A DNA stretch of 21,174 nt from a virus. Where the stretch lies: the IMG/VR virus record IMGVR_UViG_3300046007_008584, positions 1 to 21,174 of that record. One strand, given 5' to 3'. Each line of letters opens with the position of its first letter. Within the stretch, counting starts at the first letter, position 1. Shown here piece after piece: positions 4,673 to 19,172 of this stretch. The notes under the pieces are model-generated. The model searched no databases. It saw only the letters and a program-made list of their open reading frames with translations, and was not told where the DNA came from. A program made the translations under genes and the position numbers.

Positions 4673-5360
4673 CGAAGCCGCCGCTGTAACCGGCGTAGCC
4701 GCCGCCGCTGTAGCCGGTCGACGCTCCGACGCCGCCGCCGTAATCAGCCCCGCCGCCAGAGCCGCCGCCGTAATAGTCGTTTGAATAGGCGCTTAAGATG
4801 CCGGATAGCGCTTGCGGCGACATGCCGTACTGGCGCTGCGTCGCAACGCGATCAAGAGCCGAAACGTACTCGTCCGGCATCATGCGAGATACGACAGCCG
4901 CATTATACTGCTGCTGCGTCGTCATCGGCCCGAATAGCGACGCCGCGAAACGATCCGGCAGCGGAGAAAAGCCGGCCATGTAAGCCCGCGCCGGATTGAT
5001 CACGGGTCCGACGCCGAGCGCTGTTAGGTCAGCCTGCGCGCGGCTGATGTCCCGCCCCGTCCCGAGCGCGCCGGCGATGCCGCCGAGCCCCGGAATGCCC
5101 ATCAGCATCCCCGCGACAGAGCCGATCCTGCCCGTCGCCGTACCGGCCCCGTATTCGCCGATGGGAGGCTCGTAGGACGGTCCTGGCGTCGTCAGCGCAC
5201 TTGCGTCGCTGGCGCCCGTCCCGAGCATTCCTGCGGCTCCAGGCGCGCCCCCAAGAACGCCCGGATACATCGCCATGACGCGCTGCCACAGCGGCGTGAC
5301 GCGAGGGGCGTTCAATTGCGGCGCGCGCACCGAAAGCGGAGCGCCGTAAGGTCCGTTCAT
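4665..5360 (-). CDS. Gly/Ala-rich virion-region protein, possible internal or connector protein
   Basis: 231 residues, ATG at 5360 in an ATGA overlap with the portal stop. GGGAGGGGGG, inside the portal end, could be the ribosome site. Residues 65-105 are a hydrophobic Gly/Ala stretch (MLMGIPGLGGIAGALGTG), a possible membrane-active segment. Residues 140-190 hold a more ordered part (TTQQQYNAAVVSRMMPDEYV). The last 40 residues are a Gly/Tyr/Ser low-complexity tail (YYGGGSGGGADYGGG and onward). The family is not recognised. The position after the portal and the amphipathic centre would fit a minor head or ejected protein; this is inference. Confidence 0.6.
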   Translation of the reverse strand: MNGPYGAPLSVRAPQLNAPRVTPLWQRVMAMYPGVLGGAPGAAGMLGTGASDASALTTPGPSYEPPIGEYGAGTATGRIGSVAGMLMGIPGLGGIAGALGTGRDISRAQADLTALGVGPVINPARAYMAGFSPLPDRFAASLFGPMTTQQQYNAAVVSRMMPDEYVSALDRVATQRQYGMSPQALSGILSAYSNDYYGGGSGGGADYGGGVGASTGYSGGGYAGYSGGFDV

Positions 5361-7519
5361 CGCAGCCCCCCTCCCGGCATTTGCTGATTGCGAAACAGCG
5401 CCTGCATTTCAGCGCGCTGACGGTCGACCTCGGCGCGGATCACGGCCATGTCGACCTGCGCGCCGGTCTTCGCCTGTATGTCGTATGCCTTCAGCATTGC
5501 GTCGACCATGAGCTTGTCGCGCTCGAAATCAGCCGAGACCATCGCCTTCTGGCGGTCTAGTTCTTGCCGCGCGGCGTTGATGACGATGTCGGCTTGGATC
5601 TTCTGCGCCTCGACCTGCGCGAGCATCTGCGCCGGATCCATGCGCGGCTGCTGCTGCATGTTCTGCATCAGCTGCATCATCGCCTGCGGATCAACCTCTT
5701 TCACGAATTGCGAAGGATCGCGGAAGCCGGCCAGTTCGATCATTTGCGCGAGCGTCGCACGGTACTGTGACATATCGACAAGAGGATTAGCAGGCCCGAG
5801 CAGCTTCAGTATCTCCTCTTGCTTCGCAGCGATGACCTGCAGGAAACCGAGCCGCTGTTCGTCAGAGCCGCGCCCGAGCGCCACGTTGATCGTCATGTCC
5901 ATTGACGCGTCCCAGCCGCGCGGATCGACGGCAACGAACCGGTTACGCAGGCGCATGATCTTCGCCTTGTCCTGATGCTGAACGAGCATGCGCAGGACGC
6001 CCTGGAAACACCGCTTCAGGCCATCGGCGAACAGCCGGGCGATCATCTCGATGCGGTCCTGCGACGCGGACAGCTGCGCCTGGACAGCCGCGCGCGTCGT
6101 CGACTGTAAAACGTCAGCGTCGAGCCCCTGCGACGTGCGCGAGATGCCGGTGCGCTGCGTTTTGATCTCGTCGATGTAGGCCAGGACGCCCAGCGCCGGC
6201 TGCCCGACAAACGGCGTGGCAAGCGGCTGCACCGCTCCAGGCGCGCGCGCCCGGATCACGGCGCCGGTCTCGTTGTTCAAAACGTCGTCGAGGTTCACCT
6301 GCCCCTCGACGACGACCGTGCGCGGGTGGATTGCTTGGGCGAGGCTGTCGAGCATGTTCCGCATGATGCTCGACTTCATCAGCTGCAGGTCCATCGTCTG
6401 ATCGGCGATCGACTGACCGAAAATCGTGTGTGGCGTCGGATCGGGCGACAGGATCGCGAAAGGGATCTCCTGGACGATCTCGCTGTGCAGGATGTAGCCG
6501 CCGTTGCCGACCGTGCAGACCTTATGCATCTCGGCGATGCCGTCGCCGTCGCGATCAACGCGGATATAGCACTCGACGTAATAAACCTTATCGGTGCTCT
6601 CGTCGTTCTGATTGGTGATGCCGAAAAACGACTGGTCAGCAGGATTGCGGACAAGCACCTCGTTATTCATCTCAAAGCCGCTGGTGCCGGCGTTCATCTC
6701 GATAACGTCGCGTGGGTAGCCCATCGCGACCAGCTCCGAGATCGTCGCCAGCTTGCGGCGCCCAACGAACAGCGCGTCGTCCAGCGACGTCGCTTCGTTG
6801 TCGATCAGAAATTGCTCGGGCGGGATCGCCTCGATGCGATAGCGCGGCGTGCGCGTGATCCGCCGTACCGTCAGCGACACGCGCGGCTCCTGCACCTGCT
6901 CGCCGAACGGTGTCTGCACCGCGATAATTTCCTCGCTGACGCTCTCGAGGACGACAGCCGGATCGCTCAGGATCAGCTGCATCTCTTCCTGCGAGAGGCC
7001 GGAATACGAGTGCCGCTCAACGCTCTCGTCGTAGTAATGCGTCCAGTTCAGGATTCCCGTTTTGAGGATCAACGCGTCCTTGATCGCGTCATGCAGCACG
7101 CGAAAGCCGGGGTTCTCCTGGAAGAAGACATAATTGACCAGTTCCGTCGCCTGCTTCGCCGCCTCAATGTCCTCGGGCTGACGGGGGATGAACTCAACGA
7201 CGTTCTCATTCCCGGTAAAAATCCGCAGCAGCGAAGGAAGCATCGCAAGGACGGTATCGCGCACTTCCGTCAGCACGACGCGCGACCGCCCCCGCTCTTC
7301 GTTTCCGAACTCGCGCCCCAAAAAGTAGGCCATCGCGCGCTCGCGCTCCGGCGCGATGTAGCTGTCGATGTAGGTTGCAGCGTCCTGCGTCGCCTGGAAA
7401 ACGATATACCGGAACTCTTCGTCGGTGAGCGCGCCCTTCGGCGCGATTACGCCCGTCTCGTCGTTCCAAGCGCGCGACGCGGTCGCGCCGATCGGGATCA
7501 GATCCGGGTTATAGGCCAT
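5357..7519 (-). CDS. Portal protein (P22-like class)
   Basis: 720 residues, ATG at 7519 with AGGAG eight bases upstream. The N-terminal third holds a conserved portal pattern: YIDSYIAPERERAMAYFLGR, SRVVLTEVRDTVLAMLPSLL, then ENVVEFIPRQPEDIEAAKQA and DAIKDALILKTGILNWTHYY. The middle has the beta wing (RYRIEAIPPEQFLIDNEATS) and the DLQLMKSSIMRNMLDSLAQA helix. The C-terminus from about 620 is a Gln/Met-rich region followed by a long coiled coil, resembling the barrel extension of P22-type portals. Twelve copies should form the ring at one capsid vertex through which TerL pumps DNA. Its place between the terminase and scaffold genes fits. Confidence 0.92.
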   Translation of the reverse strand: MAYNPDLIPIGATASRAWNDETGVIAPKGALTDEEFRYIVFQATQDAATYIDSYIAPERERAMAYFLGREFGNEERGRSRVVLTEVRDTVLAMLPSLLRIFTGNENVVEFIPRQPEDIEAAKQATELVNYVFFQENPGFRVLHDAIKDALILKTGILNWTHYYDESVERHSYSGLSQEEMQLILSDPAVVLESVSEEIIAVQTPFGEQVQEPRVSLTVRRITRTPRYRIEAIPPEQFLIDNEATSLDDALFVGRRKLATISELVAMGYPRDVIEMNAGTSGFEMNNEVLVRNPADQSFFGITNQNDESTDKVYYVECYIRVDRDGDGIAEMHKVCTVGNGGYILHSEIVQEIPFAILSPDPTPHTIFGQSIADQTMDLQLMKSSIMRNMLDSLAQAIHPRTVVVEGQVNLDDVLNNETGAVIRARAPGAVQPLATPFVGQPALGVLAYIDEIKTQRTGISRTSQGLDADVLQSTTRAAVQAQLSASQDRIEMIARLFADGLKRCFQGVLRMLVQHQDKAKIMRLRNRFVAVDPRGWDASMDMTINVALGRGSDEQRLGFLQVIAAKQEEILKLLGPANPLVDMSQYRATLAQMIELAGFRDPSQFVKEVDPQAMMQLMQNMQQQPRMDPAQMLAQVEAQKIQADIVINAARQELDRQKAMVSADFERDKLMVDAMLKAYDIQAKTGAQVDMAVIRAEVDRQRAEMQALFRNQQMPGGGLR

Positions 7520-15972: not shown

Positions 15973-16572
15973 TTAAAACGGGATTTCGTCCTCGAGGCCA
16001 TGTTCCGCTTCCGTTCCTTGCGCCGCCACCCTGGTCACGACCGCGCCGGGGAAGGCCGCCTTCGCCGCGTCCGCCGACACCGCCGCCCGCGACCACCGGT
16101 GGCGCCACACTCTCAGCAATTCCGGCAAACTGACGACCGTCTCGCCGTCGACCGCCAGCCCCGGCGCTGCCGCGTCGCGATCGTGCATCGTCACGACGTA
16201 CCGCGTTCCGTCGATCGTCGCACCGACGACGCCGCCCGGCAATGGGCTGGCGCCGAGCGCGGCCGCCTCGGCGTCGAGCGCCTGCCACCCGCGCATCAGG
16301 ACGGCCGCCCGCTTAACGACGTCCTCGACGACGCCAGACGCGACCGCCTCGTCGAGGCGCCGGCGCGCCGACGCGAACCGGGCTGCCGTCTCCGGCCCGA
16401 CAAGCGCCTCAACGCGCCCCGGCCCCCACTTCCGCTCCACGTCGGCCGCGACACGGTCGAGCGGCGCGAGCGCGGCTGCCACCGCATCCGCCCGCAGCAT
16501 CTCGTCGAGGCTCATCGCCCTGATCGGCTCCCTGACCGGCGCCTCGCGCCGCTTGCTCGTCTTGCCCGTCAT
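15973..16572 (-). CDS. Unknown protein with SSB-like C-terminal tip (EDEIPF)
   Basis: 199 residues from ATG at 16572, preceded by GAGGAGAGGGACAGG. In-frame starts further up (TTG 16638, GTG 16626) would add a run of six His from a GGT repeat, but they have poorer ribosome sites. The N-terminus is basic (KTSKRREAPVREPIRAMSLD), followed by an Ala-rich helical part (DRVAADVERKWGPGRVEALV). A possibly beta-rich part follows (GATIDGTRYVVTMHDRD), then LPELLRVWRHRWSRAAVSAD. It ends GLEDEIPF, nearly the DDDIPF tip by which bacterial SSB recruits replication and repair proteins. It lies after the primase-helicase and the iteron-like gap, so a replication role is likely. No OB fold can be shown by eye. 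Confidence 0.6.
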   Translation of the reverse strand: MTGKTSKRREAPVREPIRAMSLDEMLRADAVAAALAPLDRVAADVERKWGPGRVEALVGPETAARFASARRRLDEAVASGVVEDVVKRAAVLMRGWQALDAEAAALGASPLPGGVVGATIDGTRYVVTMHDRDAAAPGLAVDGETVVSLPELLRVWRHRWSRAAVSADAAKAAFPGAVVTRVAAQGTEAEHGLEDEIPF

Positions 16573-16595
16573 CGTCCTGTCCCTCTCCTCGTCTC

Positions 16596-16794
16596 GGTGG
16601 TGGTGGTGGTGGTGCGGCACCTCCACCCTTCCCTTCAAACTCTCCCCGCCGCCCGCCAGGGCGCTGCCGCACCTGCAGCACCCCTTGGCCCCCTAAAGGG
16701 GGCCTAAAGGTGGTGCGGCAGGGTGCGGCATCTGCCCGCTCCTGCGCAGCACCTGCTGCGCCCTGGTGCTGCAAGGTGCTGCAACGGTGCTGCA
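16596..16794. repeat. Iteron-like cluster of GGTGC(G/T)GCA repeats, candidate origin
   Basis: Copies of GGTGCGGCA or GGTGCTGCA stand at 16611, 16712, 16722, 16765, 16775 and 16786 on the plus strand. Inverted copies stand at 16665, 16674 and (one mismatch) 16745. Tandem copies are 9-11 bp apart, about one helical turn. A (GGT)6 tract at 16596-16613 adjoins the first copy. The cluster lies directly after the primase-helicase gene. Such arrays are typical replication-initiator or operator binding sites. Confidence 0.55.
16687..16704. other. Perfect hairpin inside the iteron-like cluster
   Basis: GGCCCCC and GGGGGCC pair over seven bases around a TAAA loop. It sits between the inverted copies and the first tandem direct copies of the repeat. 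No U tract follows on the minus strand, so an origin or RNA-structure role is more likely than a terminator. Confidence 0.45.
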
Positions 16795-16802
16795 GACACC
16801 CC

Positions 16803-19172
16803 CTATTTCGCCCCCGCCAGACACCAAGCTGGGCTCGTCCTGCCCCGCGTCCCGGAGGCGACCTCGACCCTCTCGATGAGCCCCGCCGACACCCAGGCCG
16901 TCGTCATGTCGCGAACCATGCCGCGCCACCGGGCCGCCTCGACGTTCGCCGACAGGTCCGGCAGCGCGTCGCGCAGGACGTGACCGATCCACCGGGACGA
17001 CTGATCGCTGACGCGGAGCGGATCGCCCTGCCGCTCGGCTTTCCCGATCTCGGCGAGCGCTCGGGTCCGGTGATCGTCCCGGACGACGTCCCAGGTGCTG
17101 GGCGGCTCCCACCGCTCGACGACGCCGACGCTGTCGCCGCCCCGCAGCCCGGTGCCGTTGCCGAGCTCGACGGACGCGAGGCGGATCCACGACGCGCTGC
17201 GTGCCGGCGAGAGGTTCGTCTTCGCGTCGTCGATGCGCGCATAGCGGCCCCGCTCGGCGACGGGCACGCCGAGCCGGATGGCGTCCTGCTCCGCCATCGG
17301 CTGCAGGATCCGCGCGACGCGCGCAGCGCCGATCAACGCCGTGCCGCCCCGGATGCTGTCGGCGGACGCATCCTCGTTTCCTTGTATTTTGCGAAAATGA
17401 TGGACGATCTCGACGCTGACGCTGGTCTGGTCGGCGATTGACCGCCACGCCGCGACGACGTGATGCATCGCGCCGTTGTCGTTTTCTGACACGGCGTGAG
17501 ACCCGACGAACGGATCGACGATCAGGACGCTGACGTTGCTGCGGCGGATCACCGCGACGACGGCGTCGACGACGGGACGGTGGACGACGACGCCGTCCCG
17601 CCCCTCAGACGCGATTAACAAAGGCACGTCGCGCCCCGCGTCGAGCAGCAGGCGCCCCTCGATCTCGTCGCGCGCAATGCCGTGATGGCGCGCCGCAGCC
17701 GCGATTCGCCTCTGCATCTCGTCGAGCGGATCCTCGAGGTTCAACGCCCAGACGACGCCACGCTCATGAACGTCCTCTCCGAGCAGCCGCCGGCCGCTGG
17801 CGATCGCCAACGCTTCGGCGACGTACAGGCTCGTCTTGCCGACGCCGCCGGCCGACGCGAGGACCGAGACGTGCCCCCGCAGCAGGCTCCGGCCGTAAAT
17901 CCACCGCCGTGCCGGGATCTGCTCCGGCTCGATCCACCGGAACGCGTTGCCGAGCCCGCCAGGAGCCTCAGGAAGCGCGCTGGCCTCTTCTGGCGCCTCC
18001 GGTGCTGCCGGCGCTGCAGGCGCGTCCTGCGGCCCGGAAACAGGCCCTGGCGTCGATGCTTGCGGCTCTTGTGCCTGTGCCGTCTCAGCCGGCGGGCTGC
18101 CGGCCACCAACGGCCGGGCGGCGAGCCGCGCCTCGAGCCGATCGGCTGCCGTCTGCGCCGTCTGGTCGCGCGGGGCGATCGCCCGCCACGCCGCCTTGAG
18201 ATCGCCGCCGTGCTGCGTTTTCGCGAGGACGGCGAACGCATCGTGCAGCCGCCCGGAGAACAGGCACGCGCTGCCGTGATGGGAGTATGCGACCCAATCG
18301 CCGCGCTGGCCTCGGAACACGACGACGCCCGGCATCCCGGTCTCGCTGCCGGGCCGCAGGAACCGGTGCCGGTCGTCTCGGTCCTTCCAGCAGTATCGAT
18401 AGCCCTGGCTCTCGAGCGCCTGCCTCATCCACTCGAAGCCGGCGCTCTTGTTGAACGCGTCGATCACGCCGCCGGCGTCGCCGGCCATGCGCGTCGTCGC
18501 CGGAACGGCGACGAGCTTGTCCTCGCGCGCCTCGGCACGCAGCCGGTCGAGGTAGCGCGTTTCGCACGCGCGCACGTCGAGCCACGGCGCATCTGCGCGC
18601 GACGCGGCGCGAAACGTCCTGAGCGCTTCTGTCGTCGCGACGCGCGGCAAATACCAAGGTTGCGACCATCGCAGGTTCTCGACCGCGTCGTCGACGAGGC
18701 ACCCCGCGCCGCGCAGCCGCTCGATGACGTAGCCGACGCACCAGCTGAGTTCCTCGGGCGATTGCAGGCGCGCCACTGGCAGGATGAGGCGCCACTTCGG
18801 GCGCTCCGGCGCGTGGCTATACGACGTGTGCAGGGCGAACGCGACGCCGATCGACGCCGCCGCCTCAACCGCGACGTCGAATGCCGGCGCGCCGGGCGCG
18901 ATCTCGCCGGTCGTCGGATCGAACGACGCATCGCCGTCAATGACCACCAGCTGCGCCGTGCGCAGCGCGTCGTCGTGCCGGCGCGGCTCGGTCAGGTCGC
19001 CGCCCCGGATATAGTACGACCCGTCCTTAGCGCCGGTGCGTGGCTGCGCCAGCCGCGCAGCGAAGTCCGGCCAGGAATATTCGCGCGGCTCTAGCGCGAC
19101 GTCGGTCTTCCCGCCGCGCGCAAACGCGACGCGAAGCATTGCCGTTTCCAACTGATCTGATATGTCGGTCAT
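16803..19172 (-). CDS. Primase-helicase (AEP-like primase fused to RepA-type RecA-fold helicase)
   Basis: 789 residues, ATG at 19172. N-terminal domain: VVIDGDAS (Asp79, Asp81) and ALHTSYSHAPERPKWRLILP (His115-Pro132) fit the acidic and s-x-H motifs of archaeo-eukaryotic-type primases of plasmids and phages. YRYCWKDRDDRHRFLRPGS (258-276) begins a linker domain like those of such fusions. Residues 355-405 are a Pro/Ala/Glu linker. The helicase domain has Walker A ASAGGVGKTS (Lys446), Walker B VLIVDP (Asp553) and VEIVHHFRK (587-595), as in RepA/AAA_25 hexameric helicases. A winged-helix-like end follows. It should synthesise primers and unwind DNA at the phage fork. No ribosome site precedes the ATG, but an 8-codon leader overlaps it. 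Confidence 0.85.
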   Translation of the reverse strand: MTDISDQLETAMLRVAFARGGKTDVALEPREYSWPDFAARLAQPRTGAKDGSYYIRGGDLTEPRRHDDALRTAQLVVIDGDASFDPTTGEIAPGAPAFDVAVEAAASIGVAFALHTSYSHAPERPKWRLILPVARLQSPEELSWCVGYVIERLRGAGCLVDDAVENLRWSQPWYLPRVATTEALRTFRAASRADAPWLDVRACETRYLDRLRAEAREDKLVAVPATTRMAGDAGGVIDAFNKSAGFEWMRQALESQGYRYCWKDRDDRHRFLRPGSETGMPGVVVFRGQRGDWVAYSHHGSACLFSGRLHDAFAVLAKTQHGGDLKAAWRAIAPRDQTAQTAADRLEARLAARPLVAGSPPAETAQAQEPQASTPGPVSGPQDAPAAPAAPEAPEEASALPEAPGGLGNAFRWIEPEQIPARRWIYGRSLLRGHVSVLASAGGVGKTSLYVAEALAIASGRRLLGEDVHERGVVWALNLEDPLDEMQRRIAAAARHHGIARDEIEGRLLLDAGRDVPLLIASEGRDGVVVHRPVVDAVVAVIRRSNVSVLIVDPFVGSHAVSENDNGAMHHVVAAWRSIADQTSVSVEIVHHFRKIQGNEDASADSIRGGTALIGAARVARILQPMAEQDAIRLGVPVAERGRYARIDDAKTNLSPARSASWIRLASVELGNGTGLRGGDSVGVVERWEPPSTWDVVRDDHRTRALAEIGKAERQGDPLRVSDQSSRWIGHVLRDALPDLSANVEAARWRGMVRDMTTAWVSAGLIERVEVASGTRGRTSPAWCLAGAK

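Follow-up and report, generated by a model that had tools for sequence, protein, structure and literature searches.

For most environmental phages the replication origin is not known, and an array of short repeats beside a helicase gene in a viral record (IMG/VR record IMGVR_UViG_3300046007_008584, 21,174 bp, analysed over its whole length and called here the window) raises the question of whether such an origin can be recognized from its letters. A first-pass annotation had proposed that the array is the phage origin and the binding site of an initiator. Our main conclusion, reached by comparing sequences, is that this array is probably (about three chances in four) the origin at which the phage starts replication, and the cognate site bound by the initiator helicase of the adjacent gene. 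This supports the earlier proposal on three grounds: the placement of such arrays 3' of the helicase gene, the covariation of the repeated word with a winged helix, and a natural recombinant. Binding of the iterons by the C-terminal domain of this RepA-type protein is well supported by covariation; the origin activity of the array is inferred.

A repeat array confined to one intergenic region

The 9-mer GGTGC(G/T)GCA has eight exact matches in the 21,174 bp, which are the entire record holding the window, and all of them lie inside 16611-16794, so that the array spans 184 bp. Dinucleotide shuffles of the record contain a mean of 0.45 and a maximum of 2 matches to GGTGCKGCA, and none of 100 shuffles reaches eight. 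On the plus strand there are six iterons, three of them GGTGCGGCA (16611-16619, 16712-16720 and 16722-16730) and three GGTGCTGCA (16765-16773, 16775-16783 and 16786-16794). The minus strand carries three, namely GGTGCGGCA at 16665-16673, GGTGCTGCA at 16674-16682 and a ninth copy with one mismatch, GGTGCTGCG, at 16745-16753. Tandem spacings are 9, 10, 10 and 11 bp. The nine-copy array, six copies direct and three inverted, is thus as first described, provided that one mismatch is accepted, and the predicted excess of the 9-mer is indeed confined to the array within this record. As the record is the window itself, the count was also made over relatives, as reported below.

A short (GGT)n run (16596-16610) immediately precedes the first iteron. 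A CRISPR-like array was ruled out, the units being 9 bp long, in both orientations and without spacers. Elsewhere, the window carries a portal gene of the SU10 type (5357-7519, E 3.9e-201); a nucleotide search of the whole window against annotated phages returned a single weak match, with 1% coverage.

The composition of the region does not speak for an origin. The GC content of the array is about 0.65-0.74 (in windows of 100 bp), and because of this richness there is no obvious AT-rich melting region apart from the TAAA loop described below; a search of the window for an AT-rich unwinding region found none. GC skew, suggested as a check in the first-pass annotation, proved uninformative: no consistent signal marks the array, and the skew switches there neither in the window nor in most of the larger related contigs.

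The neighbouring gene encodes a RepA-type helicase with a predicted winged helix

The array starts 8 bp past the stop codon of a minus-strand open reading frame of 789 codons (16803-19172), which matches AAA_25 (E 1.2e-34) and phage DNA-metabolism PHROGs and is taken to encode a RepA-type initiator helicase. The AAA_25 domain, that of the RSF1010 RepA-like hexameric helicases, covers residues 412-596 (17385-17939, minus strand). A profile made of the window protein and 62 homologs (profile A3) matches RSF1010 RepA (1g8y) by sequence with an E value of 1.5e-10, and Foldseek with the RepA model returned RSF1010 RepA structures as top matches (1olo, E 1.8e-08; 1nlf; 1g8y). AAA_25 is the helicase domain recognized in all 63 homologs, and there was no match to a P4-type (SF3) helicase family.

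When the last 100 residues were predicted alone from an alignment of 54 sequences, they gave a confident winged helix (AlphaFold pLDDT 86.7). Structural matches of this domain, which covers residues 699-785 (16818-17078, minus strand), are winged-helix domains, the best of them (Z 8.9) being a DNA-bound one. In the predicted structure the winged helix is fused to the helicase in one chain, and we propose it as the iteron reader.

The neighbouring gene had been described as a primase-helicase. The helicase half of that description holds, on the strength of the AAA_25 match; the primase half finds no echo in Pfam, which recognized no primase in the N-terminal half of the window's RepA. Among the 63 aligned proteins, 21 match Toprim_3, 21 DUF7146 and 7 Prim-Pol. 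We therefore consider 'primase-helicase' a likely name for the window's protein, its N-terminal half being unassigned by Pfam and Toprim or Prim-Pol domains being present in some relatives. No fold is claimed for this half because the pLDDT of the full-length model is mostly under 50 there. Across the homologs of profile A3, the N-terminal half swaps between Toprim and Prim-Pol types, and the helicase, winged helix and array stay in place.

On the other side of the array lies a minus-strand gene of 199 codons (15973-16572) for which family searches gave no match, and whose product had also been put forward as a possible binder. Since the genes past the array differ from one phage to the next, to the point of being unrelated, we prefer the RepA helicase as the candidate binder and regard this flanking gene as probably outside the system.

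The same array design in related loci

The first homolog found, at locus L002, has a RepA with 42% identity to that of the window and the same architecture built on another word, ACTGGAGCA: about nine copies of ACTGGAGC(A) lie on both strands directly 3' of the gene, around GGTATACCCTAAAGGGTATATACC, and the hairpin core CCCTAAAGGG is the same as in the window. Two further homolog scans added 158 loci; a third query, with a Microcystis phage homolog, found nothing further. Most loci have a repeated 8-mer in the first 400 bp past the stop codon that is far rarer in other intervals of the same locus. In addition to ACTGGAGCA, the iteron words include AGTGCGGAA, GGTGGAGCA, GGTGGGGAA, GGTGAGGAA, GGTGTGGAA, AGTGGCGCA and ACTGTGGAA, among others, and they mostly fit the pattern R-S-T-G-N-N-G-S-A, in which position 8 may also be A and NN is specific to the locus.

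Using a fixed definition of a cluster (at least five [GC]TGNNG sharing the same NN within 200 bp), we found one within 1.4 kb 3' of the RepA gene in 37 of 49 distinct homologous AAA_25 helicase loci; on the 5' side none of 34 loci had one over the same distance, and shuffled 3' flanks contained one in 0.6% of cases. With this motif, roughly one distinct locus in four had no clear array inside the 1.4 kb; in these the array may be absent, the sequence missing, or the motif insensitive. In several loci lacking an adjacent array, one was present 0.2-1.3 kb further on, past inserted genes. No array was seen at L123, where homology is limited to the N-terminal part, or at L127, the Rhizobium phage RHph_X2_26 homolog. 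An attempt to find arrays by scanning viral contigs for iteron pairs gave many unrelated matches and was useless without the helicase as an anchor.

In whole related contigs, the copies of the word that fall inside the array amount to 6/6, 7/7, 7/7, 5/5, 5/6 and 7/11 of all copies, and each relative genome has a single word-bearing array. The design is also found in bacterial genome contigs, mostly from Alphaproteobacteria, which carry relatives with arrays; the iteron of one of them, L318 (Lichenibacterium), is GGTGCGGCA, one of the two words of the window, and further genome copies are those of Defluviimonas (L317) and Rubellimicrobium (L319). Judged from these comparisons, the array is one member of a widespread and seemingly undescribed kind of element behind RepA-type helicase genes of bacterial viruses. 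A literature search of incomplete coverage retrieved no description of such a RepA/iteron-array family.

The iteron word covaries with the winged helix

Pairs of proteins from a set of 83 distinct RepAs were compared at equal helicase identity, and those sharing an iteron core resemble each other more closely in the winged helix than those whose cores differ. The 20 alignment columns with the strongest coupling to the word include 18 in the winged helix, where 5 would be expected. The top coupled column is the wing tip, occupied in the window by residue 776 (codon 16845-16847, minus strand), and it sorts by base 5 of the iteron: D or E goes with C, Q with A, A, T or H with T, and K or R (or Q followed by R) with G. 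This rule was set down before three further scans supplied hold-out loci. Among 43 new C-termini it was right for 32 and wrong for none, the other 11 lacking the wing motif or the cluster; the 32 cases are not independent, because most are related to the marine T and A classes. Over training and hold-out sets together, base 5 is correctly predicted from the wing residue for 140 of 144 RepAs.

The association was set against a tree of the 144 RepAs made from the helicase domain alone, on which there are 23 changes of base 5 and 20 of the residue class. The normalized mutual information between the wing column and base 5 reaches 0.62. When base 5 was simulated 300 times on this one quick tree under a single simple model, the largest value was 0.40 at the wing column and 0.53 over all 381 columns. 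Tree-based independent pairs are few on well-supported branches, and among the pairs listed only T versus small/His reached 6/6. The four exceptions to the rule are L201 and L203 (Q with GG), and L318 and the window (R with C). The window's own RepA therefore breaks the rule, with R776 and yet C at base 5; since it is part of a diverged group with words ending in GCA, we do not claim the wing code for it.

A natural recombinant separates the word from its flanks

Further indications come from loci L415 and L421, compared with L401 (the L129 protein). The first 340 residues of the protein are 94% identical and the downstream gene is 91-92% identical, whereas the last 380 residues are just 33-34% identical; in L415 this diverged part still contains the AAA_25 domain. 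Between unchanged flanks, the word has become ATCGGGACA or ATGTCGGAA, and the CCCTTTAGGG hairpin is present. The word therefore travels with the helicase/DNA-binding half of the protein rather than with the flanking genes. Such a hairpin accompanies either helicase half; a separate role for it, for example in priming by the shared N-terminal half, would be compatible with the recombinant, although not proved by it.

The central hairpin

A perfect hairpin with a 7-bp stem had been noticed in the middle of the array, and it is found at 16687-16704, where GGCCCCC-TAAA-GGGGGCC forms the stem around an AT tetraloop. It is the tip of a large inverted repeat (about 16665-16730), seen in the DNA fold, in which left-arm iterons pair with right-arm ones. 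Folding of the array strand as DNA gave a z score of -4.96, and no shuffle was equally stable.

Perfect hairpins of at least 6 pairs are present in 83 of 89 non-identical arrays. Many are central, at 0.5-0.63 of the array length, with AT tips (TATA, ATAT, TAAA, TTTA, TTAT), as in CACCCCCTAAAGGGGGTG and CTTGCATATATATATGCAAG. Compared with shuffles, a hairpin at p ≤ 0.05 is found in 46% of arrays, a statistic that is modest when taken alone because some of the longest hairpins are merely inverted iterons. The recurrence of a central position together with an AT tip is the stronger argument for the hairpin.

Alternative roles for the array

Repeated sites are typical of operators as well as of origins. 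The array could thus be an operator through which RepA, or a separate regulator, controls the downstream operon or its own messenger, with no origin involved; its intergenic position between two co-directional genes would suit this role, as would the separate winged-helix gene that some relatives have between repA and the array. Against it, the array comes behind repA and not ahead of it, the genes past it are unrelated between phages whereas the word and the RepA C-terminus covary, and a search for sigma-70-like promoters within 16400-17000 found none. We consider it unlikely.

Plasmid copy control is another use of iteron arrays, and short-repeat arrays act as partition sites; in P4 both ori and crr carry iterons. 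A site for partition, incompatibility, recombination or packaging, in place of a start of replication, is on this basis conceivable. It is nevertheless very improbable given that the proposed reader is a helicase protein, that there is one word-bearing array per relative genome, and that no partition genes were recognized among the window proteins searched. Operator and partition roles are both less likely than an origin, although an array that binds protein would by itself suit regulation or partition as well.

The position directly past a stop codon and a fold far better than that of shuffles (z -4.96) might also indicate a transcription terminator, or an RNA structure ending the repA messenger. 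This reading is hard to credit: within 16400-17000 no terminator-like site was found and a T tract was also absent, the word behaves as a sequence signature coevolving with a DNA-binding domain, and an RNA function would need neither both orientations nor spacing by a helical turn. Lastly, a simple-sequence or codon-repeat artefact of GC-rich DNA, evoked by the (GGT)n run ahead of the first copy and by GGTGCKGCA pairs in many unrelated viral contigs, can be dismissed in view of eight copies against 0.45 expected and of the conserved position and covariation across phages.

A model for initiation

The most likely reading is an origin read by RepA. The C-terminal winged helix of RepA would bind the 9-bp iterons, which are placed about one helical turn apart and flank the central hairpin; covariation and the natural domain swap argue strongly for this step. 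By analogy with the helicase family and with better-studied origins, the bound proteins may then assemble as AAA_25 (RSF1010 RepA-like) hexamers, and the DNA may open or extrude at the central inverted repeat, which has an AT loop. Priming on the single strand exposed in this way, possibly on the hairpin, could be the work of the host or of RepA's own N-terminal half, which in relatives is of the Toprim or Prim-Pol type.

A broader proposal, whose chances we judge evenly balanced, is that of a large undescribed family of phage origins served by a RepA-type helicase with a swappable winged-helix reader. One wing residue would read base 5 (acid for C, Gln for A, Lys/Arg for G, small/His for T), the helicase, reader and word would be exchanged as a specificity cassette, and the hairpin would be a separate conserved element for opening or priming. 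If true, the sequence 3' of repA would reveal the origin of any phage with this RepA family, and in the main subfamily a single amino acid would suffice to predict part of the iteron. Initiator-origin specificity would become directly testable with the words and wing residues that occur as a natural series, and swapped cassettes would indicate how phages may shift origin compatibility when competing inside one cell. The element would also unite the iteron array and the post-initiator stem-loop, which are two designs of origin.

Comparison with known origins

The placing of short iterons just behind the helicase gene, on its 3' side, as in the window and 37 of 49 relatives, is also a feature of SaPI Rep-ori and SCCmec Cch2 of staphylococcal islands, where SaPI Rep represents another helicase class. 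In SaPI Rep and SCCmec Cch2, the C-terminal domain of the initiator helicase reads iterons directly 3' of its own gene (PMC7581432). A comparable word specificity carried by the C-terminal domain is suggested here by covariation and the domain swap. Unlike SaPI, the present element has an AAA_25/RSF1010 RepA-like helicase, a central hairpin and tailed-phage hosts, and its genome copies are mostly in Alphaproteobacteria.

The P4 iteron, GGTGAACAG(A/T), begins with GGTG like that of the window. For the P4 alpha protein, a C-terminal winged helix and repeats have been stated (PMC4234260). As in alpha, one protein would join priming, helicase and C-terminal winged-helix origin-binding parts and read short iterons, the winged helix being a prediction here; unlike in P4, the helicase is AAA_25, with no match to the SF3 (P4/D5-type) family. 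The P4 origin-binding domain was absent among the matches listed for the winged helix, which says nothing against relatedness.

The plasmid pRN1 requires an origin stem-loop 3' of its prim-pol/helicase/winged-helix gene, and similar stem-loops occur in some phages (PMC4234260). A C-terminal winged helix and a stem-loop just 3' of the gene are common to crenarchaeal plasmids of the pRN1 type, phage BIP-1 and the window, whose inverted repeat is a large stem-loop. However, pRN1 has no iterons and an SF3 helicase, whereas here iterons dominate, the helicase is AAA_25, and Prim-Pol is present in some relatives only.

The RepA of RSF1010 (IncQ) shares its fold and its sequence family with the helicase of the window. 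RSF1010 differs in having separate RepA, RepB' and RepC proteins and iterons of about 20 bp, the window combining a fused helicase and DNA-binding domain with iterons of 9 bp. The RSF1010 oriV comprises iterons plus hairpins (ssiA/ssiB) for priming (PMC4234260). Because the helicase is AAA_25 and not SF3, and the reader fused and not separate, the array and its RepA belong to none of the SaPI, P4, pRN1 and RSF1010 systems as these are defined, although these are their nearest working parallels.

Variants of the layout

Some loci depart from the basic layout. In L312 (4726-5400) and L309 (3400-4040), a stand-alone winged-helix gene, a second copy of the RepA type, lies between repA and the array, and in L312 its wing residue is of class K, the same as in the neighbouring RepA; such a gene may act as a regulator or as a competitor for the iterons. 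The Rhodoferax phage P26218 (L124, 33050-33660) has a more distant RepA followed by a small gene with a weak GntR-like (winged-helix) match, and past this gene there is a CTGCTACAA array around a CCCCTTTAGG hairpin, which suggests that the design is broader than the AAA_25 proteins with a fused reader. In phage record MW202879 (L125, 3000-3320), TCGGAGATACC / TCGAAGATACC repeats lie 3' of the annotated repA.
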